A stretch of DNA of 64,000 nt from Lewinella sp. 4G2 (GTDB lineage Bacteria > Bacteroidota > Bacteroidia > Chitinophagales > Saprospiraceae): the NCBI RefSeq assembly GCF_001625015.1, contig NZ_LVWJ02000014.1:930001-994000 (forward strand), in the 5' to 3' direction. Positions 1,800 to 52,250 of the stretch are shown here, piece by piece (positions within the stretch are counted from its first letter, which is position 1; each line of letters opens with the position of its first letter). Made by a program: the position numbers and the translations under genes. The notes under the pieces are model-generated. The model saw only the letters and a program-made list of their open reading frames with translations. It was not told where the DNA came from and made no database searches.

Positions 1800-2786
1800 T
1801 TACACACGACGGTTTTTAAATTTTTCCTCAGTTAGGTACTTGACACCGGCGGGGAGTATTTGCCCACGCCCCTCACGGGCATACTTGCCGGGCGTGGGTA
1901 AATACTTCACGACGGTTGGGCACAGGTCTTCATTCACTCCCTGGCCGTCCTTGATCAAGAGCGCATAGCGGTAGCCTGGCTGATCCGATCGCCAGCCGGC
2001 CACAAAGGCTTTGGGACTGCTTCGCAACGGCAACCTTCCGTGGATCCGTTTGGTATTATAGTGCTTCACGGCTCTGTTTACCAGGCGCTTTAGCTGGTCA
2101 AAGTCTTTGGGTTGCCAGTGGTCGAGGTACTCTTGTTTGATCACACCGTTGAGGCGTTCAGCGTAAGCATTGTCCAGCGCTACGTCGCACATACTACTTG
2201 AGATGCCTCTGCTACGCAGTCGTTCGACGAACTGACGACTACGATACTGCGAACCACCATCGCTGTGGAAGATGAGACCCTGTAGATCTGACTGACCACA
2301 CTGGCGAAAAGCGCTTTCCAAGGCAGCGATGTTTGCCGTTGCCAGTAGGTGTTTACTCGTATGGACACCTACGATCTGACGGCTATAAACGTCAATGATG
2401 AAGGTGATGTAGTAAAAGCTATTGTTGATGCGATAGTACGTCGTATCGCTCTGCCATACTTGGTTAACCCCATTGATAATCAGTTCTTTAATTAAATTAG
2501 GATAGCGATAGGACCCTGATCGGGTTACCCGCACGTAGTTGCGTTTACGGACTAGGGCATAGCCACGCCGGGTCATCTCACGGCAGAATGCGTTGCGCGA
2601 GATATGCCGCGGCCGTAGCATACTCCAGGCTTTCTGTAGGCCCAGGCCGGGGTGTTCTCTGCGCAACAGTTTTAACTGAGACTCAGCTCCGTTCATGGCA
2701 TCCTCGTACTTAGCTCGGCGCTTCCAAAAAGCAGCGTGAGCTTGTCGACTAACGCCCAAGGCTAAATAGATCGTTTGCTTCGTCAT
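1800..2786 (-). CDS. IS3-family transposase OrfB (DDE integrase core)
   Basis: Catalytic half of the IS3 transposase. An HTH_21-like segment (residues ~40-100) precedes the rve integrase fold with the DDE triad: D in VWQSDTTYYRIN, D in LIFHSDGGSQYRS and E in NAYAERLNGVIKQEY. Its ATG overlaps the orfA stop as ATGA (2783-2786). The frame is -1 to orfA and open upstream to the A9 run at 2837-2845, so an OrfAB fusion is likely. IS3 OrfB normally ends shortly after the motif seen here as LPLRSSPKAFVAGW. About 55 extra residues follow, read partly through a strong inverted repeat at 1855-1906, so the natural C-terminus may have been extended. Confidence 0.9.
   Translation of the reverse strand: MTKQTIYLALGVSRQAHAAFWKRRAKYEDAMNGAESQLKLLRREHPGLGLQKAWSMLRPRHISRNAFCREMTRRGYALVRKRNYVRVTRSGSYRYPNLIKELIINGVNQVWQSDTTYYRINNSFYYITFIIDVYSRQIVGVHTSKHLLATANIAALESAFRQCGQSDLQGLIFHSDGGSQYRSRQFVERLRSRGISSSMCDVALDNAYAERLNGVIKQEYLDHWQPKDFDQLKRLVNRAVKHYNTKRIHGRLPLRSSPKAFVAGWRSDQPGYRYALLIKDGQGVNEDLCPTVVKYLPTPGKYAREGRGQILPAGVKYLTEEKFKNRRV
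1855..1906. repeat. 17-bp-arm inverted repeat in the orfB 3' end
   Basis: Left arm 1855-1871 (AGTATTTGCCCACGCCC) and right arm 1890-1906 (GGGCGTGGGTAAATACT) are complementary at 16 of 17 positions, with an 18-nt loop holding a smaller GGCA/TGCC pair. It lies in the unusual tail of OrfB. It could act as a terminator-like or REP-like hairpin; no T-run follows on either strand. Confidence 0.65.
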
Positions 2787-3184
2787 TGGCTCTTCTTTTT
2801 GCTCGAAGAGTCGGCTGAGCGCAGTGTGGAAGCAGCTTTTTTTTTGAACTCCGGCATCTCCTCTTCGTAAATGGCCAGCATTCTCGTTTTGTGGTCAAGT
2901 TGAATGGCCATCCGACCGAGGAGGGCTTGCTGTTCGGCGAGCTGACGTTGCAGTTCTGCAAGCTTAGCAGTTTGACTATTGGGGACTTCGACGATAACGG
3001 CATTCTTCTTGGCCATGCTACTGTATTTAGCGATCCAGTTGTAGATCGTTTGATAAGATACGCCGTAAAGCTGGACCATTTGCTTGACACTAAAGGTGCC
3101 CTCCTCAAAATCTTTGACGCGGGCTCGTTTGAAGCACTCGCCGTAGCGCTTGGTGGGACGGATCTTCCGATTTTTTGTTGACAT
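2783..3184 (-). CDS. IS3-family OrfA (HTH transposase subunit)
   Basis: 133-residue DNA-binding half of the IS3 transposase. The N-terminus has a helix-turn-helix (FSVKQMVQLYGVSYQTIYNWI, about residues 30-50) expected to bind the IS ends. A coiled-coil/leucine-zipper stretch follows (LAELQRQLAEQQALLGRMAIQL, about 75-97). The C-terminus is lysine-rich and encoded by an A9 run (2837-2845). The stop overlaps the orfB start by ATGA. OrfA alone normally regulates; the OrfAB fusion transposes. Confidence 0.85.
   Translation of the reverse strand: MSTKNRKIRPTKRYGECFKRARVKDFEEGTFSVKQMVQLYGVSYQTIYNWIAKYSSMAKKNAVIVEVPNSQTAKLAELQRQLAEQQALLGRMAIQLDHKTRMLAIYEEEMPEFKKKAASTLRSADSSSKKKSQ
2837..2845 (-). other. 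A9 slippery run: likely -1 frameshift site of the IS3 element
   Basis: On the coding strand nine A residues follow GTTC (orfA reads E-F-K-K-K-A). Orf B's frame is -1 to orfA and has no stop between this run and the orfB ATG. A -1 slip would read on as S-C-F-H-T-A-L-S-R-L-F-E-Q-K-E-E-P-M-T-K. Runs of A are standard IS3 frameshift or transcript-slippage sites. Use of this one is inferred. Confidence 0.7.
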
Positions 3185-3221: not shown

Positions 3222-4046
3222 TAGACGGGATACCTGATGGCTTGGGAGGTATCCGTCCCTTAACCGTGGTAGTGATTTCAGCGCCAGAAAGCGTGAAGAA
3301 ATTTGCACTGTTTGAGCACGCGACAGATTTACACTTAACCCACAGAGTGAATGTAAACGGCAGACCCAGATCTTGAAACAAAAGGTAGTTGGCGAGTTTG
3401 CAAATTTTAGCTTTCTGGCGCTGAAATCGCGTTAAGCCACGGTTATAGGACAAAGCTTTTGCTTCTTTTGGCTACAAAAGAAGTGGTAGAGAAGCAATGA
3501 CGTTAAGCATCGACCTGAAGGTCGACGTACCCGAAGAAAACCCGGCCTGGAGGCCGGGAGCCGGATGGAGAATCGAGTTAAGCCACCTGCAAAGGACAAG
3601 ACTTTTGCTTCTTTTAGCTGCGCTGCTACTGCGTGGTGGGCACAAAAGAAGTGGTAGAGAAGCAACGACGTTAAGCATCGACCTAAAGGTCGACGTACCG
3701 GGAGCCGGATAGAAATTCGCGTTAAGCCATAGTTACAGGAAAAAGCCTCTGCTTGTTTTAGCTGCGCTGCTACCGCGTGGTCCTCTGAAAAGAGGTGCCA
3801 CGAAAGAAAGAGTAGAGGAGGTTGGAGAAAGGGAGCGGCCTCTGGCAGTTCCCCAACTACCTGCCCCGAAGGGCCAGCCTGCGTAGCGATGGCACGCCGT
3901 CAGGCGGCCCATTCTAAAAGAAAGATCTTGGAAGCTAGACAGGTCCAAACTCGAATGTACCTACCCCAGTCAACTTATTTGGAAGCAGTAGTCAATCGTC
4001 GACGTACCGGTTCGGGGGGAAATCCCGGCCAGAGGCCGGGAACCAC
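3222..4046 (+). repeat. Large repeat block I (long hairpin plus tandem units)
   Basis: Non-coding. A linker is followed by a long hairpin at about 3251-3455. Stems: TTAACCGTGG (3260-3269) with CCACGGTTAT; GATTTCAGCGCCAGAAAGC (3274-3292) with its exact complement (3410-3428); AAATTTGCA (3299-3307) with TGCAAATTT (3399-3407). Tandem units follow, each beginning CGCGTTAAGCCA and holding a CTTCTTTT/AAAAGAAG hairpin (first at 3462-3483, loop GCTA; second at 3608-3651 with a ~27-nt expanded loop; a third degenerate near 3750-3790), a CGACCT/AGGTCG hairpin and a CCCGGCC/GGCCGGG hairpin (3541-3558). About 3790-4046 is a degenerate tail ending in another CCCGGCC/GGCCGGG hairpin. Related blocks lie near 36.7, 50.1 and 51.6 kb. 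Confidence 0.85.
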
Positions 4047-5618: not shown

Positions 5619-8216
5619 GTGAAACGTTTCCTACCCTTTTTCTTCCTTTTACTCGGCACCTGCGGCAGCGCCCAACTGATGGCGCAGGCCGTCCTGACCG
5701 GCACGATCACCGACCAGGCCACCGGCGAGCCACTCCCCTTTGCCTCCATCTACGTGCAGGAAACGAAGACCGGATCGGCGAGTAACGCCAACGGACAGTA
5801 CAACGTGAAACTCGCGCCGGGCACCAACAACGTCGTCTTCCAGTACCTCGGTTACCAGACCCTCGTGAAACAGGTGAGCGGCAACAAACGCCTCGACGTA
5901 AAGCTGAACTCCCAGGCCCTCGAACTCGGGACGGTCGAGATCATCAGCGGCGGGGAAGACATCAGCTACAGCGTCATCCGCCGCGCCATCGCGAAGGCGG
6001 ACTACCACCTCAACCAGGTGGAATCCTACGAAGCCGACGTCTACATCAAGGGGACGGGGAAGCTGAACAGCGTCGGCGGCGCCATCAGGCTTCTGGCCGG
6101 GAAGGAAGGCCGTGAGGAGATCGACGAATCCATCGGCCAATCGTTCACGTCGGAATCGACCAGCCGCGTTTATTACACCCGGCCGAATAATTACCGCCAG
6201 GAAGTGATCCAGTCCTACAGCGTTGGGGACGAGCAGATCGACGCTTCCCAGTACGTCTTTTCCACCTTCTACCAACCATTGATTGCGAACTCGATTGTGA
6301 GCCCCCTCCACCCGCGGGCCTTTGGGTACTACAAGTACGAGCAGATCGGCACCTTCATCGACCAGGACCAACTCATCAACAAGATCCGCGTCACGCCCCG
6401 CAGCCGGGGGGAGGATGTTTTTGAAGGCTTCATCTACATTGTGCAGGACGATTGGAGCATCCACAGCCTGGACCTGACGACACCGAAACTGGGCTTCGAC
6501 ATCAACATCAAGCAGAATTACGCCGCCGTGCAGGAACACGTTTGGATGCCCATCACCTCCACCATCGACGTCGTGGGCGGCATCCTCGGCATCAAATTTG
6601 AGTACCACTACCTGAGCACGATTGGCGACTACAGCCTCTCCCTCAACCCCGCCCTGAAGGGTTACGTGGAGGTCATCGACGAAAAGACCCAACCTGAGAT
6701 CGCCCGCCAAGCCAAGGGCAAACGGACCGTAAACGAACTCGAGGAGGCGCTCGGCAACGGCGAATCCGTTACCCGCAAGGACCTCCGCCGCCTGATGAAG
6801 ACCTACAAAAAAGAGGACCGCAAGGAGCGCGAGGAGCCCGAGGTGGTGAGCAATTACTCCTTCGTGGATTCCTCCGCCGTCGTGGTCCGCGATTCCGCCG
6901 CCTGGAAGAGCATCCGTCCCGTTCCCCTTACCATCGAGGAAGTGGAGGGTTACGCCATCGCCGACAGCATATATAAGGTAGAACTGCGTGCAGACTCCGC
7001 CACGACCGATGATGACCTTCGGGCCCGCGGCGACACCACCCGCACGGGGAAGACCCGCCGCTTCAAGATGACGCGCATCCTGCCTCAACCCATTTTCAAC
7101 CCCGTCCAGGGTTACATCATCGGCGCTGATGCGGAGTGGACCCACAACAAAAAAGGCTACGGCTTCGGCGTGCTACCGAGCTACAGCTTCGGGACGGAGG
7201 AGGGCTACCTCGAGCTCAGCGCCTTCTTCGGTAAGAGTGGCATCCGCGAAACGGATACGGAATCCGCGCCGCCCCGTTACCGGATCAGCGGTGGCCAGGG
7301 CTTTCGGGAATTCAACGAAGAGACGGGGATCGACCCCTGGCTAAGTACTTACCTCAACCTTCTGTCGGGCAGGAACTTCACCCGCCTGTACAAGCGCCAG
7401 TACCTCCAGTTTGACTACGCCAAGGCTTACGGGGATGAGTTCAGCGTAGACGCCCGCCTCGCCTACGAAGACCGGAGTTTCCTGCTCAACCAGGCCAATA
7501 ACAACTGGTCCGGGCTGGACGACGAGGAGGTCTACACCCAGAATACGCCCATCAATAATGCGGCGGGGAGGGTAAGTGGCGTCAGCGATGCGGCCACCTT
7601 CCGCGTGGGGGCGACGTGGATGCCCGGCCTCAAGTACCGCGTCTACAATGGCCGCAAGGAGTTAATCGAGGGCAGCGCGCCGGAGATTGGTTTCCAGGTG
7701 CGCCAGGGCATTCCCGACCTGATCAATTCCACGGCGGACTTCACGGAGATCCAGGCTTCCTACCTCAACCGCTTCGACATTGGCCGGAAGGGGAAGGTGC
7801 AATTCCTCGCCCGGGGTGGTTACTTCCTCAACAATGGCAACGTCGACTTCCCGGATTTCCGCCATTTTGCCGGTTCCGAAGTCACGCTCGTGGCGGCCGA
7901 TCCCCTCAGCAGCTACCGCCTCTTACCCTACTACGCTGAGAGCACCAACGAGGAGTACCTGGAGGTCTATGCCCACTATCAATTCCGCAAATTCTTGCTG
8001 ACGCAGATCACCGAACTCAACCTCTTCGGTTTGCGGGAGGACCTGTTCGTCAATTACCTCTACACCCCCACTTCGGATAATTACACCGAGGTTGGCTATT
8101 CATTAGATAAGATCTTCCGGGTGCTCCGCCTGGAGTTCGTCGCCAGCTTCCGCGATGGCCAGTACGATGATTTTGGGGTTCGGTTTGGGGTGGCTACTTC
8201 GTTGGCGGAGTTGTAG
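5619..8216 (+). CDS. DUF5686 and carboxypeptidase-regulatory-like domain outer-membrane protein
   Basis: 865 residues, GTG start followed by a signal peptide (KRFLPFFFLLLGTCGSAQ). Residues ~25-110 are a CarboxypepD_reg-like beta-sandwich (VLTGTITDQATGEPLPFASIYV, NGQYNVKLAPG, YLGYQTLVKQV). The rest resembles the DUF5686 family of Bacteroidota, with many alternating aromatic strands suggesting an outer-membrane beta-barrel towards the C-terminus. It lacks a plug or TonB box, so it is not a typical TonB receptor. Function is unknown. The codons for TCGSAQ are an exact copy of the dispersed 17-bp motif (5656-5672). It appears to stand alone. Confidence 0.88.
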   Translation: MKRFLPFFFLLLGTCGSAQLMAQAVLTGTITDQATGEPLPFASIYVQETKTGSASNANGQYNVKLAPGTNNVVFQYLGYQTLVKQVSGNKRLDVKLNSQALELGTVEIISGGEDISYSVIRRAIAKADYHLNQVESYEADVYIKGTGKLNSVGGAIRLLAGKEGREEIDESIGQSFTSESTSRVYYTRPNNYRQEVIQSYSVGDEQIDASQYVFSTFYQPLIANSIVSPLHPRAFGYYKYEQIGTFIDQDQLINKIRVTPRSRGEDVFEGFIYIVQDDWSIHSLDLTTPKLGFDINIKQNYAAVQEHVWMPITSTIDVVGGILGIKFEYHYLSTIGDYSLSLNPALKGYVEVIDEKTQPEIARQAKGKRTVNELEEALGNGESVTRKDLRRLMKTYKKEDRKEREEPEVVSNYSFVDSSAVVVRDSAAWKSIRPVPLTIEEVEGYAIADSIYKVELRADSATTDDDLRARGDTTRTGKTRRFKMTRILPQPIFNPVQGYIIGADAEWTHNKKGYGFGVLPSYSFGTEEGYLELSAFFGKSGIRETDTESAPPRYRISGGQGFREFNEETGIDPWLSTYLNLLSGRNFTRLYKRQYLQFDYAKAYGDEFSVDARLAYEDRSFLLNQANNNWSGLDDEEVYTQNTPINNAAGRVSGVSDAATFRVGATWMPGLKYRVYNGRKELIEGSAPEIGFQVRQGIPDLINSTADFTEIQASYLNRFDIGRKGKVQFLARGGYFLNNGNVDFPDFRHFAGSEVTLVAADPLSSYRLLPYYAESTNEEYLEVYAHYQFRKFLLTQITELNLFGLREDLFVNYLYTPTSDNYTEVGYSLDKIFRVLRLEFVASFRDGQYDDFGVRFGVATSLAEL

Positions 8217-10958: not shown

Positions 10959-11571
10959 TGGGTTGCTTGCTGCGCAAGTGTTTTCTACAAGAAGGATAGG
11001 GAGATAAGGAGGAATAAGGGGTGTGGCACTTGCGGCAGCACCTCCTTTTTCTCCTTAACCTTCTTATTCACCTTGTCGAAAACAATAGCGTTTGCTTGCT
11101 GCGCAAGTGTTTTCAACAAGAAGGATAGGGAGATAAAGAGGAATAAGGGGTGTGACACGCGCGGCAGCAACTTCTTTTTCTTCTTATCCTTCTTTTCCCC
11201 CTTGTCGAAAACAATAGCGTTTGCTTGCTACGCAAGGTTTTCTACAAGAAGGATAGGGCGATAAAGAGGAATAAGGGGTGTGACACGCGCGGTAGCACCT
11301 TCTTTTTCTTCTTAATCTTCTTATTCACCCTGTCGAAAACTAAATATTGTTGCAGCTTAATAGGGCCTAACCCGCGTAGCCAAACCAAGAAACAACCCCA
11401 ACCGATTGCAATTTCGGCGGGAAAGGCCAGGCTACCCATACTCACCTACGTTGGGGGGGCTGGGTGCTTGGCCATTCTTTTGGGGGAGGCCCAATCCGTA
11501 GCCAAATGTCCGCTTGGCGGTGTGAATTGGTTGGGAAATGGGGCATCTTGGGCTTTCCCAAAACGATCAAC
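10959..11571. repeat. Three tandem 104-bp hairpin repeats upstream of xylanase
   Basis: Units at 10980-11083, 11109-11212 and 11237-11340 are each exactly 104 bp. They begin GTTTTC(T/A)ACAAG and end CTTGTCGAAAAC or its close variant, with purine-rich left and pyrimidine-rich right arms. The conserved spacer reads AATAGCGTTTGCTTGC then TGCGCAAG. The centres (GCACTTGCGGCAGCACC in unit 1) resemble the dispersed 17-bp motif. A fourth unit lies after the xylanase gene at 13453-13556. The remainder up to 11571 shows no gene. An ATG at 11464 could extend the xylanase but codes non-secretory residues. Confidence 0.85.
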
Positions 11572-13428: not shown

Positions 13429-13452
13429 TGCGAATTCTGCTTGCTGCGTTAG

Positions 13453-13556
13453 GTTTTCAACAAGAAGGATAGGGCGATAAAGAGGAAAAAGAGGTATGGC
13501 GCGTGCGGCAGCACCTTCTTTTCCTCCTTAACCTCCTTTTCCCCCTTGTCGAAAAC
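13453..13556. repeat. 104-bp hairpin repeat, fourth copy
   Basis: Same 104-bp length and ends (GTTTTCAACAAGAAGGATAG at the left, CTTGTCGAAAAC at the right) as the three units before the xylanase gene. It is preceded by TGCTTGCTGCG as they are. With them it brackets the xylanase gene. Confidence 0.85.
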
Positions 13557-13651
13557 AGTAGCCCTCTACATGTGCGCAAAGCCCCGGACGAATAATGTTA
13601 GCCAAGCCAGCCCCGGAAAACCAAACCCCCGGTGCAATTCGTTCCCACCCC

Positions 13652-31063: not shown

Positions 31064-31190
31064 ATTTTATAACGAAGGGTGGAGAGCACGGGCTCCCTGA
31101 AACCCTGGCAACCATTCCTCCGATGGCTTCGGATGAAAAGGTGCCAAATCCCGCCACCGCAGTGCGTTTTGCCCGGTGGAACTATAAAAT
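31064..31190 (+). ncRNA. SAM-I riboswitch
   Basis: A leader aptamer that binds S-adenosylmethionine. P1 is formed by ATTTTATA (31064-31071) and TATAAAAT (31183-31190). Conserved core segments are GGGTGGAGAGCACGGGC, TGAAACCCTGGCAACC and AAGGTGCCAAATCCCGCC, in the order expected for SAM-I. The 3' strand of P1 ends 9 bases before the ATG at 31200. With SAM bound the start region of that ORF could be occluded, so translational control is inferred. The downstream genes metY and metX fit SAM repression. Confidence 0.92.
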
Positions 31191-36540: not shown

Positions 36541-36960
36541 TAAGGTACGGTTTTGCCTTGGTTTCGGACCTCTGGTCCGGATTTCGCCCATCACTCCCGG
36601 TACGTCGACCTTTAGGTCGATGCTTGGTGACACTGTTTTTGCACTACTTCTCTTCTACCACTTCTTTTGTGACCAAAAGAAGCAAAAGTCTTGTCCTTTG
36701 CAGGTGGCTTAACGCAAAATTTCTCCGGATTGGCTAAACGCTGCAAACTCGCTCTACGATCTGTATTTCAAGCTTCATCCTTTGTTTGCATTAGACTTCA
36801 GTTCCAATCATCAACAGCATCAGCTCGAACAGTGCAGCGTTCTTCACGCCAATCCGAAGAAATTTTACTACCACCTGCAAGGGACGGATGCAGTCCGGGG
36901 GTTCAAGAGGGTGTCCAAAATCTAAAATCCAACGTCTAAAATCCAAAGCTCAGTCCTCTT
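36541..36960 (-). repeat. Large repeat block II (reverse orientation)
   Basis: Same order as block I but on the minus strand: TTAGA tract (36912-36952), linker, long hairpin (about 36691-36885), then one tandem unit down to about 36560. Stems: TTGCAGGTGG (36698-36707) with CCACCTGCAA (36872-36881), exact; AAATTTCTCCGGATTGGC (36717-36734) with GCCAATCCGAAGAAATTT (36849-36866), one G-T pair; AACGCTGCA (36737-36745) with TGCAGCGTT (36833-36841), exact. The stem sequences differ from the other three copies, the linkers do not. The unit keeps CTTCTTTTG/CAAAAGAAG (36661-36682) and CGACCT/AGGTCG hairpins. Confidence 0.85.
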
Positions 36961-36972
36961 CCCTATCACATA

Positions 36973-36989
36973 GCACCTGCGGCAGCGCC
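36973..36989 (+). repeat. Intergenic exact copy of the 17-bp motif
   Basis: GCACCTGCGGCAGCGCC lies between repeat block II and the pRiA4b-like gene, 122 bases before that start. No hairpin partner is nearby. Confidence 0.8.
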
Positions 36990-37110
36990 AACTTAATGTA
37001 TGTTTAATCACGCAAAAACACAATTCGTTGTAAATGCGTAACTTGCACGCCTATTTGATAACGGCAGACGCGCCGCCGGGTACGGGCGGGCGGATTTAAA
37101 ATGATATGAT

Positions 37111-46713: not shown

Positions 46714-49700
46714 ATGCGCCTCCTCCTCCTAGCCTTCCTCCTCTGCACCTGCGGCAGCGCCCAACTACACGCACAGCTGAACCCCGAACACTGGCAAGCA
46801 CTCGCCCCCCGCAACATTGGGCCGGCCGGCATGTCGGGGCGGGTGACGAGCATTGACGTGCACCCGCAGGACCGGGACATTATCTACGTCGGGACGGCCA
46901 GCGGCGGGCTGTGGCAAAGCAAGAACGGCGGCATCAGCTTCGCGCCGATCTTCGACGACAACCGCTATCTCAGCATCGGTGCGGTGGCCATTTCGGACGC
47001 CAACCCGAGCATCATCTGGGCCGGGACGGGCGAAGGCAACCCCCGCAACTCGGCCAACTACGGCGGCGGGATCTACAAGTCGCTCGACGGCGGGAAGACC
47101 TGGCAACACCTCGGGCTGGAAGCCACCCGCCACATCCACCGCGTGCTGCCTCACCCGACCGATCCGGACGTCTGCTACGTCGGCGCCATGGGCAACATGT
47201 GGGCACCCAACGAGGAACGCGGCGTGTACCGCACCACCGACGGCGGCCAGACCTGGGAACGCATCCTCTACGTCAACGACGGCACCGGCATCGCCGAAAT
47301 GGTGATGGACCCGACCAACTCCAACAAACTGATCGCGGCCACGTGGACCTTCGACCGCGACCCCGACTACTTCAACTCCGGCGGCCCCGGCTCCGGCATC
47401 TGGGTGAGCCACGATGGCGGCGACAACTGGGAACGCCGCACCGCCAAGGACGGTCTGCCGAAGGGCGACCTCGGGCGCATCGGCCTGGCCATCGCCGCCA
47501 GCCAACCGAACATCGTTTACGCCCTCGTGGAAGCCAAGGAAAACGGCCTTTACAAATCCACCGACGGCGGCGCAAGCTGGAAACTCGTTAGCAAAAAGAA
47601 CATCGGTAACCGGCCGTTCTACTACGCCGAACTCTACGTCGACCCCCAGAACGAAAACCGGATCTACAACGTCTTCACCTACGTCTCGAAGAGTGAGGAC
47701 GGCGGCAAGACCTTCCGCCAGATCGCCGATTACGGTAACGCCGTACACCCCGATCACCACGCGTTCTGGATCGACCCGAACGACCCGGAATTCGTCATCG
47801 ACGGCAACGACGGGGGCCTCAACATCAGCCACGACGGTGGCGAAACCTGGCGCTTCGCGGCCAACCTGCCCCTGGCCCAGTTCTACCACATCAACTACGA
47901 CATGAGCTACCCCTACCTCGTCGGCGGGGGGATGCAGGACAACGGTTCGTGGGTCGGCCCCAGCCAGTCGCTGCACGCCGGCGGCATCACGGATGCGGAC
48001 TGGCAGGAAGTCAATTTCGGTGATGGTTTCGACCTCGTTTTTAAGCCCGGCGACCCGAATACCGTCTACGCCGCCAGCCAGGGCGGCTACGTGAACCGCA
48101 TCAACCGGCGCACGGGCAGCAACCTTTCCATCCGGCCGATCCACCCGGACGGCACCTTCCTGCGCTTCAACTGGAACGCCCCGATCGCCCAGGGCCCGCA
48201 GTCGCCCTGCACCTTTTATATGGGCAGCCAATTCGTGCACAAGAGCATTGATTGTGGCGACAACTGGGAGATCATCAGCCCCGACCTGACCACCAACGAC
48301 AGCCTCCGCCAGCGCTCCATGATCTCCGGCGGCCTCACCATCGACGCCACCCAGGCTGAGAACCACACCACCCTCCTCGTCATCACGCCCAACCACAAGG
48401 CCTGGGAAAGCAAGCAGGCCCTCTGGGTCGGTTCCGACGATGGCCGCCTCCATCTCTCGAAGGACGACGGCGCTACCTGGGAGGACCTCACCAGTCGCCT
48501 CCCCGGTTTCAAGGCGGGCAGCTGGATCCCCTACATCGAGGCGAGCGTCCACAACGAGGCCGAGGCCTGGGTCGTCGTGAATGACTACCGCCGGGGCGAC
48601 CCCAAACCCTACGTTTACCACACGGACGACTTCGGCCAGACCTTCAGTTTGGTCGTGCGCGAGGGCGACGTTACCGGCCACGCCATGTGCATCGTGCAGG
48701 ACCCCGCCGAGCCGGCCCTCCTCTTCCTCGGCACCGACCAGGGCCTCTGGTTCAGCCTCGATAAGGGCAGCAACTGGGGCCACCACACGGCCGGTTTCCC
48801 CGCCGTCCAGGTCGCCGATCTCAAGATCCACCCGCGGGAGCACGACCTCATCATCGGCACCTTCGGCCGCGCCGCCTGGATCCTCGACGACATCCGCCCC
48901 TTCCGCAAACTCGCCGAGATCGAAACCACCGTCGCGGCCCTCGACAGCTTCACCGTCTTCCCCGCCCCGGACGCCTACCAGTGGAGCCGCCGCAGCTACC
49001 AGGGCACGCGTTTCTACGCCCAGGGCCAGTACCAGGGCGAGGACCGTCGCCGCGGGGCCCTCCTCACCTACTGGGTCCAACCAAGCAAGAATAGGGCGCT
49101 GCCGCAGGTGCCAAAAGAAGGACAGGGTGCACCAAAGACCAAGCGCAAAAACCGGGACCGCAACCCCGCACCAATGACCACCTCCACTACGAATGACGAC
49201 CCGAGCCGTGTCCTCCGCTACTCCGCCAAGGAACCGGGGATCAAGGAAGACGTCCCCGGCCGCGAAAGCGCCCGCTGGGGCCTCCGCGAAGACCCCTTCG
49301 CCAGCGGGAATGGCAACCCCGACCCCATCGACGGCCCGAAAGGAAAAGTAAAGGTTCAGGTAGTGGACGTCCAGTCCGGAGACACCATCCGCACCTACAA
49401 GATCACCCCGCGCTGGGGCATGAACCGCACCAGCTGGAACATGCGCCGCGACGGGATCCGCTACCCCAGCCGCACCCCCGCCAAACCCGATGCGGACCTG
49501 CCGAGTGGCCCGTCCGTCGCCCCCGGCGTCTACGAAGTCGTGATGACCTATGGCGACCATGTCGGCAAAACCCTCGTCACCGTAAAGCCCGACCCGCGCG
49601 AACCGGGCGTCAACCGCGCCGATGGCCGCGGCCAGGAGATGCAGGCGGAGTTGGATTCCACCGTAGTCCGCACCGGCCGCGCCTGGCAGGAGTTGCTGGA

Positions 49701-50071: not shown

Positions 50072-50600
50072 TTTTAGACGTTGGATTTTAGATTTTAGAC
50101 GGGATGGCTAAAGTCTTTGGAGTTTATCCGTCCCTTAACTGTGGTAGTGATTTCGGTGGGAGAAAGCGTTAAGAAATTTGCACTGTTCGAGCACACGATA
50201 GAATATTACATGACCCACAATATTATGTAATCAATAGATTATTGCACAGCGCACAGATCGAATGGCGAGTTTGCAAATTTTAGCTTTCTCCCACCGAAAT
50301 CGCGTTAAGCCACGGTTATAGGACAAGACTTTTGCTTCTTTTGGTCACAAAAGAAGTGGTAGAGAGGAAATGGTAGAGCAGAAGTGACGTTAAGCATCGA
50401 CCTAAATGTCGACGTACCGGGAGCCGGGGGATATCGCGTTAAATCACGGTTATAGGACAAGCTTTAGTTTCTTTTAGCTGCGCTGCTACTGCGTAGTGGC
50501 TACAAAAGAAATGCAATAACAGAAGTGACGTTAAGCATCGACCTAAAGGTCGACGTACCGGGAGCCGGGCGAGCTCCTCAGAAAATAGTAAAGAGATTTA
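50072..50600 (+). repeat. Large repeat block III
   Basis: TTAGA tract (50072-50101), linker, long hairpin (about 50128-50326), two tandem units. Stems: TTAACTGTGG (50135-50144) with CCACGGTTAT; GATTTCGGTGGGAGAAAGC (50149-50167) with its exact complement (50283-50301); AAATTTGCA with TGCAAATTT. The middle stem differs from block I at several positions, with matching changes on both sides. First unit loop is short (CTTCTTTTG GTCA CAAAAGAAG), second has the expanded TAGCTGCGCTGCTACTGCG loop. Both units end in a CGACCTAAA(T/G)GTCGACG hairpin and CCGGGAGCCGG. Non-coding. Confidence 0.87.
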
Positions 50601-51454: not shown

Positions 51455-51532
51455 GGGTAATGGTGTTAGTTGGTTTAAAGGTAGTGTTTTGTGGTTGCCT
51501 TTGATCAAGTTAAAGTCTGGATTGCAGGGATT

Positions 51533-52250
51533 TTTAGACGTTGGATATTAGATTTTAGACGAGATACCTGAAGCCCTGGAAGTTTATCCGTCCCTTAACC
51601 GTGGTAGTGATTTCGGCGGTAGAAAGCGTAAAGAAATTTGCACTGTGTGAGCACGCGAAAGATTCAAGTATAGCCCATAGATTAAATGCAAACGGCAATC
51701 TAAAAGCTTGGAACAAAAGTTGATTGGCGAGTTTGCAAATTTTAGCTTTCTAGCGCCGAAATCGCGTTAAGCCACGGTTACAGGACAAGACTTTTGCTTC
51801 TTTTGGTCACAAAAGAAGTGCTAGAAGGGAAGTAATTAAGAGGAAGTAATGTCAAGCATCGCTCTAAAGGTCGACGTACCGAGAGTGAGCCCGACCTGGA
51901 GGTCGGGAGCCGGGGGTAGGATCGCGTTAAGCCTCGGTTATAGGACAAGACTTTTGCTTCTTTTAGCTGCGCTGCTACTGGGTGGTGGTCACAAAAGAAG
52001 TGCTAGAAGAGAAGTAGCGTCAAGCATCGACCTAAAGGTCGACGAACCTGGATTGAGCCGAACCTGGAGGTCGGGAGCCGGGAGGAAATCGCGTTAAGCC
52101 ACGGTTACAGGACAAGACTTTTGTTTCTTTTAGCTGCGCTGCTACTGCGTGGTGGCTACAAAAGAAATGGTAGAAGAGAAATGATGTTAAGCATCGACCT
52201 AAAGGTCGACGTACCGGGAACCGGGAATTAAATCCCAACCGGAGGTCAGA
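51533..52250 (+). repeat. Large repeat block IV
   Basis: TTAGA tract (51533-51562), linker, long hairpin (about 51588-51787), three tandem units. Stems: TTAACCGTGG (51595-51604) with CCACGGTTAC; GATTTCGGCGGTAGAAAGC (51609-51627) with GCTTTCTAGCGCCGAAATC (51745-51763), one mismatch; AAATTTGCA with TGCAAATTT. First unit has the short GTCA loop, the following two (about 51960 and 52130) the expanded loop. Each unit has CGACCTAAAGGTCGACG and variants of a CCTGGAGGTCGGG hairpin. Same orientation as block III. Confidence 0.87.

Follow-up and report, generated by a model that had tools for sequence, protein, structure and literature searches.

We found that a hairpin of about 200 bp in the genome of Lewinella sp. 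4G2 belongs to a real, dispersed and apparently mobile element whose fold is under selection, and that this element resembles dispersed non-autonomous palindromic repeats. Most dispersed palindromes known from bacteria are short, and a link to RAYT transposases is common among them. We favour, with moderate confidence, the explanation that the element is non-coding, is mobilised in trans and is selected for its fold. Three features extend the preliminary description of this DNA, namely a pseudoknot-like 3' module, an ordered arrangement of left and right units, and a spread across phyla.

Four copies in the 64-kb window

The four hairpin blocks that the preliminary description had reported in the window (the whole 64-kb stretch of DNA analysed) are present at those positions with the stems named there, and can be aligned with one another. 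Their ends were refined to 3254–3451 (plus strand), 36693–36886 (minus strand), 50129–50324 (plus strand) and 51589–51786 (plus strand). The element itself extends beyond these blocks and includes a left module and a 3' module.

In copy 1, on the plus strand, a left module (3222–3262) precedes the long hairpin, which consists of outer, middle and inner stems and a variable tip of ~70 nt. The hairpin is followed by a pseudoknot-like 3' fold at 3454–3483 (S1, AGC/GCT; L1, TTTTG; S2, CTTCTTTTG/CAAAAGAAG), which is part of right unit 1 (3429–3531; 3' arm, pseudoknot-like fold and GTCGAC hairpin). Right unit 2 (3571–3704) is of the other outer-stem type (CCACCTGCAA), and right unit 3 (3714–3808) is decayed. 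Copy 2, on the minus strand, has a hairpin of the other stem type, a right unit at 36591–36715 and a left module at 36879–36941. Copies 3 and 4 are on the plus strand; copy 3 has a left module at 50072–50137 and right units at 50302–50423 and 50430–50564, and copy 4 has a left module at 51530–51597 and right units at 51764–51890, 51921–52060 and 52085–52219.

An IS3-type element (HTH_Tnp_1 and rve) at window positions 1800–3184 adjoins the left module of copy 1, the outer part of which seems to be replaced by the end of this element. Because similar ORFs adjoin two further copies of the genome (C14:1201 kb and C19:430 kb), the IS3-type element may target the left module. Other repeats in the window are a dispersed CACCTGCGGCAGCGCC repeat (e.g. 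5645–5681, 36962–36998 and 46734–46770), some copies of which lie within ORFs, and a 129-nt tandem repeat at 10963–11348, with a further copy 2.2 kb off (13436–13564).

Copies and anatomy in the Lewinella sp. 4G2 genome

The genome (5.21 Mb, 21 contigs) yielded 71 BLAST pieces of the element, and from clusters of pieces with both arms we read 34 full copies (contig C14, 28; contig C19, 6); half-copies such as that at C14:1684880 were excluded. In this half-copy (L052, C14:1684880–1685050), the left module and 5' arm are split by another repeat, CGGAGACCCGACC...GGTCGGGTCTCC, which recurs a few hundred bp upstream. With the genome copies collected, as the preliminary description had proposed, a covariance model (R1) was built from the 34 and recovered the same 34, together with 10 reverse-strand echoes of the palindrome.

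Read from 5' to 3', the element starts with a left module of ~67 nt (TTTTAGACGTTAG...) containing a GACGGGATA/TATCCGTC inverted repeat, and continues with the outer stem (TTAACCGTGG or TTGCAGGTGG, with variants), TAG opposite GCGTTAAG, a middle stem of ~19 bp, a GTTAAG-type loop opposite TTTAG, and the inner stem. Beyond the inner stem lie CTGTTCGAGC, ~70 variable nt with few conserved positions at the end of the hairpin, GCGAGTT and the 3' arms, which are followed by AGGACAAGACTTTTGCTTCTTTTGGTCACAAAAGAAG and then by a GTCGAC hairpin. Since the middle stem reads TAG-stem-GCGTTAAG on either strand, the two internal loops represent one motif in opposite orientations. A GGTAG sits inside the hairpin and not as a terminal tag. 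In a few tips, GCGAGTT is followed by a 32-nt insert (e.g. L061:18679–18902), and a closely similar stretch is present in a locus of another genome (L091). The unpaired parts had been described as conserved, which is true of the GCGTTAAG bulge in 31/34 copies; the remaining three have lost it and are near-perfect palindromes there, with the bulge replaced by the complement of the opposite arm, indicating that copying from arm to arm also occurs.

At least two left units were found in 12/34 copies and at least two right units in 16/34. The order (left)n-hairpin-(right)m was violated in none of the 34, extra left units lying leftward only and extra right units rightward only, and certain extra units carry a stem type other than that of the central hairpin. 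We infer that these arrays arose when new copies inserted within existing ones and the earlier centre was lost. An arrangement of nested shells, in which the left and right stems correspond, was rejected as a general rule, as one locus conforms and the others do not.

Predicted ORFs are clear of 33 of the 34 copies and overlap one. Protein coding was also rejected, because frames vary in length and stop among the copies of this genome, and ORFs crossing the tip in distant copies occur in five frames. The copies are scattered over both strands; close inverted pairs were not seen among them, nor, by eye, were terminal inverted repeats. For the copy at 36.7 kb, no empty site was obtained, as the nearest ortholog (G019) lacks the copy and the flanking gene is also absent from its 1.5-kb flank. 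With neighbouring ORFs predicted mechanically, the orientations of upstream and downstream genes relative to the 34 copies (same-same 9, same-opposite 8, opposite-same 6, opposite-opposite 11) followed no rule. These counts bear on the possibility that the element acts in cis in mRNAs (as a terminator, for instance, or as a 3' stabiliser) and owes its spread to duplication; the strong hairpins observed between genes fit such an element, but none of the orientations is preferred, and we regard this explanation as very improbable.

Covariation of the hairpin arms

The preliminary description had reported paired changes in the stems of four copies, and pairing is kept across the further copies: in the 34-copy alignment, 98.5% of 1495 cells are standard pairs, compared with 79.8% when the 3' letters were shuffled (98.5% was reached in 0 of 500 shuffles) and at most 45.2% when the partner was slid by 1–3 columns. 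The covariation score was 0.484, compared with 0.161 in shuffled data. The numbers of doubly changed pairs (22 versus 21.1; 167/500 shuffles as high) and of pair types (45 versus 42.8; 87/500 as high) showed no excess, because the changes are carried by few subfamilies within which stems are shared.

We further compared the complementarity of each arm to its own partner with that to the arms of other copies. The own-partner values were higher in the 34 copies of this genome (60.0 versus 31.6), in 86 copies from 11 related genomes (46.3 versus 18.0) and in 114 distant copies (35.4 versus 14.9), exact duplicates having been removed from the latter two sets, along with distant tips too close to a contig end. 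The own partner ranked within the best 5% for 76/86 related and 94/114 distant copies, and for only 17/34 copies of this genome, since stems are common within subfamilies.

Relatives in the genus and in distant phyla

Model R1 detects the family in 12 of the 21 genus genomes, Lewinella sp. 4G2 included, and the copy counts obtained are lower bounds, at most 120 candidates per genome having been scored. Between species of the genus, the stems are mostly unrelated, and the loops and the length (~196 nt) are retained. A pattern taken from the Lewinella sp. 4G2 genome gave no matches in a first scan of public genomes. Public genomes of several phyla contain at least 119 stretches with a short-loop form of the tip, CTGTTTGAGCGNAGCGAGTTT, compared with a calculated chance expectation of about 0.5 in 257 Gb for its 20 fixed bases. 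The isolates among the matches listed include Flammeovirga and Elizabethkingia (Bacteroidota), Selenomonas ruminantium and Alkalibaculum (Bacillota), and Variovorax and Methylophaga (Pseudomonadota); the matches listed also include a Pasteurellaceae bacterium, and metagenome bins among them carry Nitrospirae, Aquificaceae and candidate phyla labels, in which contamination is possible. One query each against E. coli genomes and plasmids gave no match, and phages gave one partial match.

In the distant copies, the arms flanking the tip differ yet are complementary, and the tip persists, as does the loop of TA opposite GTTAAG in the copies read closely. Pasteurellaceae copies have the tip-side loop motif in reverse orientation, and some of them share outer GGCGAAACCCGAT ends. 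The tip contains GCGNAGC, which we take to be the extraordinarily stable DNA mini-hairpin d(GCGNAGC); in the genus copies, the ~70 variable nt occupy the place of its GNA. Among 395 sampled Bacteroidota genomes, the exact tip was found in five (11 matches, versus 0 for a reversed control). With up to two mismatches, 81 matches were found in 19/395 genomes, versus 20 for the reversed control, some of which may be true copies because the tip is nearly mirror-symmetric; single matches at this level may be due to chance.

Several genomes, both of relatives and of distant bacteria, contain inverted pairs whose members are separated by a few hundred bp at most and which are mostly divergent, with convergent cases in G014; in G020, tandem copies lie about 500 bp apart. 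In G276 (L477–L478), eight similar copies lie on the same strand at spacings of 1–10 kb, and among the genes separating them are those of toxin-antitoxin, Fic, ATPase and TonB-receptor types. Such a run would suit a recombination site like integron attC, serving to mobilise gene cassettes, as would GTTAAGC, which fits the attC R' box consensus. However, the copies of Lewinella sp. 4G2 are scattered on both strands, relatives read GATCAG or GATAAG in place of GTTAAG, and no recombinase match was obtained among 20 scanned proteins of the G276 array region, so that we consider this reading highly improbable.

A pseudoknot-like fold in the 3' module

Many copies, though not all, contain a second fold 3' of the hairpin, with two interleaved, covarying helices, S1 and S2. 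Judged from its sequence, this fold is predicted to be either an H-type pseudoknot or two competing hairpins. A downstream S2 hairpin, whose 5' strand is pyrimidine-rich on average, was found in 32/34 copies of this genome and 75/85 related copies. It was also found in 19/19 Pasteurellaceae copies and in only 57/116 distant copies, some of these being ordinary hairpins, so the fold is not universal. In several extra right units, the loop of this hairpin contains a 24-nt insert (AGCTGCGCTGCTACTGCGTGGTGG; e.g. window positions 3617–3640).

S1 is formed by pairing of the S2 loop with the letters directly before the T-rich tract. It reads GAC/GTC and AGC/GCT in this genome, where 25/32 copies are in register (shuffled mean 11.5, maximum 20 of 1000), and GAA/TTC, GGG/CCC and others in relatives, where 24 of 61 parsed copies are in register (mean 3.6, maximum 10; 14 unparsed copies are left out). 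In other Bacteroidota it reads CTTGAT/ATCAAG, CTTGAA/TTCAAG and CTTGAC/GTCAAG. For a pooled set of 115 distinct modules (pyrimidine content of the 5' strand at least 65%, loop of no more than 12; 200 permutations), both S1 pairing (3.83 versus 2.89 permuted, maximum 3.11) and the likeness of L1 to its own S2 strand (5.71 versus 5.10, maximum 5.34) exceeded all permutations. S1 did so in this genome, the genus and the distant set taken separately, and L1 in the distant set only: the L1 value equalled the permuted one in this genome (5.56 versus 5.56) and in the genus stayed under the highest permuted value (4.76 versus 4.78). Pasteurellaceae alone showed no excess for S1 (3.38 versus 3.16, maximum 3.50) or for L1 (7.00 versus 7.20). 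The match of L1 to S2 suggests that the pyrimidine tract could form a triple helix. Given an S1 of 6 bp and the lack of a linker, S1 and S2 may be alternatives rather than simultaneous helices.

Orthologous copies at shared sites

One Pasteurellaceae copy is flanked by genes that we take to be nudB and yebC. Sixty-one genomes of the family have the first gene, and 30 loci were read. The tip was present in three of these (gaps of 254–437 bp), and no tip at up to three substitutions was found in the other 27 (gaps of 13–293 bp), a distribution that could partly reflect loss. Among the three copies, paired changes are seen in the inner stem (ACTTG/CAAGT, ATGGC/GCCAT and ATTTG/CAAAT), in the middle stem, in S1 (TCGCC/GGCGA and TTGCC/GGCAA) and in S2 (TTTCTTTG/CAAAGAAA and TTTTTTG/CAAAAAA), and the L1 tract changes along with S2. 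Although three sequences make a small sample, these copies occupy the same site, so their compensatory changes are not explained by mixing of copies.

The second shared site lies upstream of an archaemetzincin-like gene; there the element is present in G013 and G016 and was not found in the flanks of seven other genomes, and in G020 two copies in tandem flank the gene on its opposite side. The G013/G016 pair shows few stem changes and no clear compensatory case. The proposal of a selected RNA or DNA structure is strengthened by covariation that reaches relatives and, at one site, orthologous copies.

The probable folding strand

Isolated mismatches within helices (three pairs flanking each side) were counted as G-T or A-C. 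The respective numbers were 7 and 8 in this genome, where all eight A-C cases lie at one fixed C-A position, 34 and 7 in relatives, where four of the seven lie at the same position, and 27 and 11 in distant copies; no P value is given, because the copies are related and not independent. The preference for G-T over A-C suggests that the plus strand is probably the one that folds, as RNA or single-stranded DNA.

Covariation could also arise without selection through neutral quasi-palindrome correction, in which template switching during replication copies one arm to the other, and the three copies with an arm-derived replacement of the bulge are what this process would leave. However, the asymmetric bulge is kept in the other 31, the tip and loops are kept across phyla despite the turnover of stems, the interleaved S1 helix covaries, and the mismatches are strand-biased. 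We therefore consider template switching an improbable source of the pattern, and selection on the fold better accounts for these observations.

Search for a partner gene

A RAYT transposase, a reverse transcriptase and a recombinase had been named as possible associated genes. For the RAYT-type Y1 transposase no link emerged: in three sets of Y1 places, each read with as much as about 2 kb of flanking sequence, the element was found in 0/30, 1/30 and 0/20 (1/80 in all), the first 30 having been searched with model R1, and the second 30 and the 20 with tip patterns. The single Y1 gene near an element has its own GTAG-type palindromes, and the element lies ~1 kb off, beyond another gene; three more matches in the second set were set aside (four substitutions and no visible hairpin arms). 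Some Y1 gene is present in 12/12 genus genomes with the element and in 22/28 element genomes elsewhere, with no Y1 match in the other six. Stronger Y1 matches (E below 1e-16) were found in 9/12 element genomes versus 3/9 element-free genomes, which is suggestive; they are absent from G011, G020 and G010 (55%-complete), which have 8, 20 and 2 copies, respectively.

These data concern the alternative of a REP/REPIN-like DNA hairpin for which a Y1 HUH transposase (RAYT/TnpAREP) performs cut-and-paste movement of single-stranded DNA, without RNA. It agrees with the inverted pairs in several genomes, the covarying stems, the occurrence of some Y1 gene in most element genomes, and a Bacteroidetes TnpAREP subclass that is reported to have 'atypical secondary structures' on its flanks (PMC6006769); against it stand the single positive place among the 80, the six element genomes with no Y1 match, and the interleaved helices, which are ill-suited to simple REP hairpins. 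We judge it unlikely. A Pasteurellaceae RAYT-type gene at L375 is followed by tandem units with GTAGGGGCGTATGGCATACGCCCCTAC palindromes.

A reverse transcriptase was rejected as the partner: RVT_1 occurs in 8/12 element versus 4/9 element-free genomes, without correlation, and in none of four genomes with 4–20 copies, although a helper may have been lost later. We also clustered the ORFs within 2 kb of 97 copies. The clusters spanning at least three genomes comprised an amylase-type gene and one gene in several overlapping frames, the latter a weak archaemetzincin match (NCBIfam) with no Pfam or PDB match. This archaemetzincin-like gene adjoins copies in three genomes (L129, L134 and L138), and it is not a partner, since it is present in 4/12 element versus 6/9 element-free genomes. 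A further 17 clusters span two genomes, and in Lewinella sp. 4G2 the IS3-type element is the only recurrent neighbour identified. There is no gene inside the element, and no recurrent partner gene was found beside the 97 copies among the clusters spanning at least three genomes.

Comparison with known families

The preliminary description knew of no family of this form, and Rfam 15 likewise gave no match at gathering score for the element. At that level the window yielded only a SAM riboswitch elsewhere (RF00162, 68.5 bits, 31064–31190, plus strand), and 12 loci of relatives only a 5S rRNA; matches below the gathering level are implausible for the element. The searched literature, including parts of PMC3733652, PMC6006769, PMC2267715 and PMC9825169, did not contain a description of the element, and an earlier account, mainly in subscription journals, is possible.

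REPs are palindromes of 20–40 bp, one end of which carries a GTAG or CGTC tag (PMC3733652, 2013; PMC6006769, 2018). Like REPs, BIMEs and REPINs, the element forms dispersed intergenic palindromes without coding capacity, with stems that covary between subfamilies and, in some genomes other than this one, with inverted pairs; unlike a REP, it has ~200 bp and three stems, its internal loops and tip are fixed, the 3' module is often present, and it has neither a terminal GTAG/CGTC tag nor, at the 80 Y1 places read, an adjoining RAYT gene. It is also similar to bacterial MITEs (ERIC, YPAL, RUP and NEMIS), which are non-coding intergenic palindromic repeats of roughly 100–300 bp, but we observed neither shared terminal inverted repeats in this genome nor a related IS, and the loops are kept across phyla. 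In integron attC sites, structure is kept while sequence turns over, one strand folds, and bases are left unpaired. The element shares these properties and differs in its scattered distribution in this genome, in an R box not kept in relatives, and in its extra pseudoknot-like module. RNA pseudoknots of interleaved helices with parallel pyrimidine and purine strands occur in telomerase RNA and SAM-II; the interleaved helices of the element and its pyrimidine L1 parallel to a purine strand are similar, whereas the fold of the element is a predicted one and lies in a multicopy dispersed repeat.

Discussion

If the element is indeed mobilised in trans and selected for its fold, the selected feature would be the fold of one strand, with a multi-stem hairpin, a repeated TA/GTTAAG internal loop and a conserved tip, followed in many copies by the pseudoknot-like 3' fold. 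On that assumption, we lean somewhat towards its working as RNA rather than as single-stranded DNA, because the combination of interleaved helices and a pyrimidine strand running parallel to its matching purine strand is a hallmark of RNA pseudoknots. A candidate enzyme, of the host or of a helper, would recognise the tip and the TA/GTTAAG loops and insert new copies, sometimes within older ones, which would produce the (left)n-hairpin-(right)m arrays. A wider reading, which we offer tentatively and as possible rather than probable, is that of a hitherto unrecognised class of bacterial structured RNA in several phyla, itself mobile, with a fixed-tip multi-loop hairpin and a triple-helix pseudoknot, and moved by a common enzyme.

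The occurrence of one large fixed fold in distant phyla, with its stems turned over, makes both the structure and the enzyme that would recognise it open to test. If transcribed, the element would constitute a structured RNA that is mobile and likely includes a triple-helix pseudoknot.
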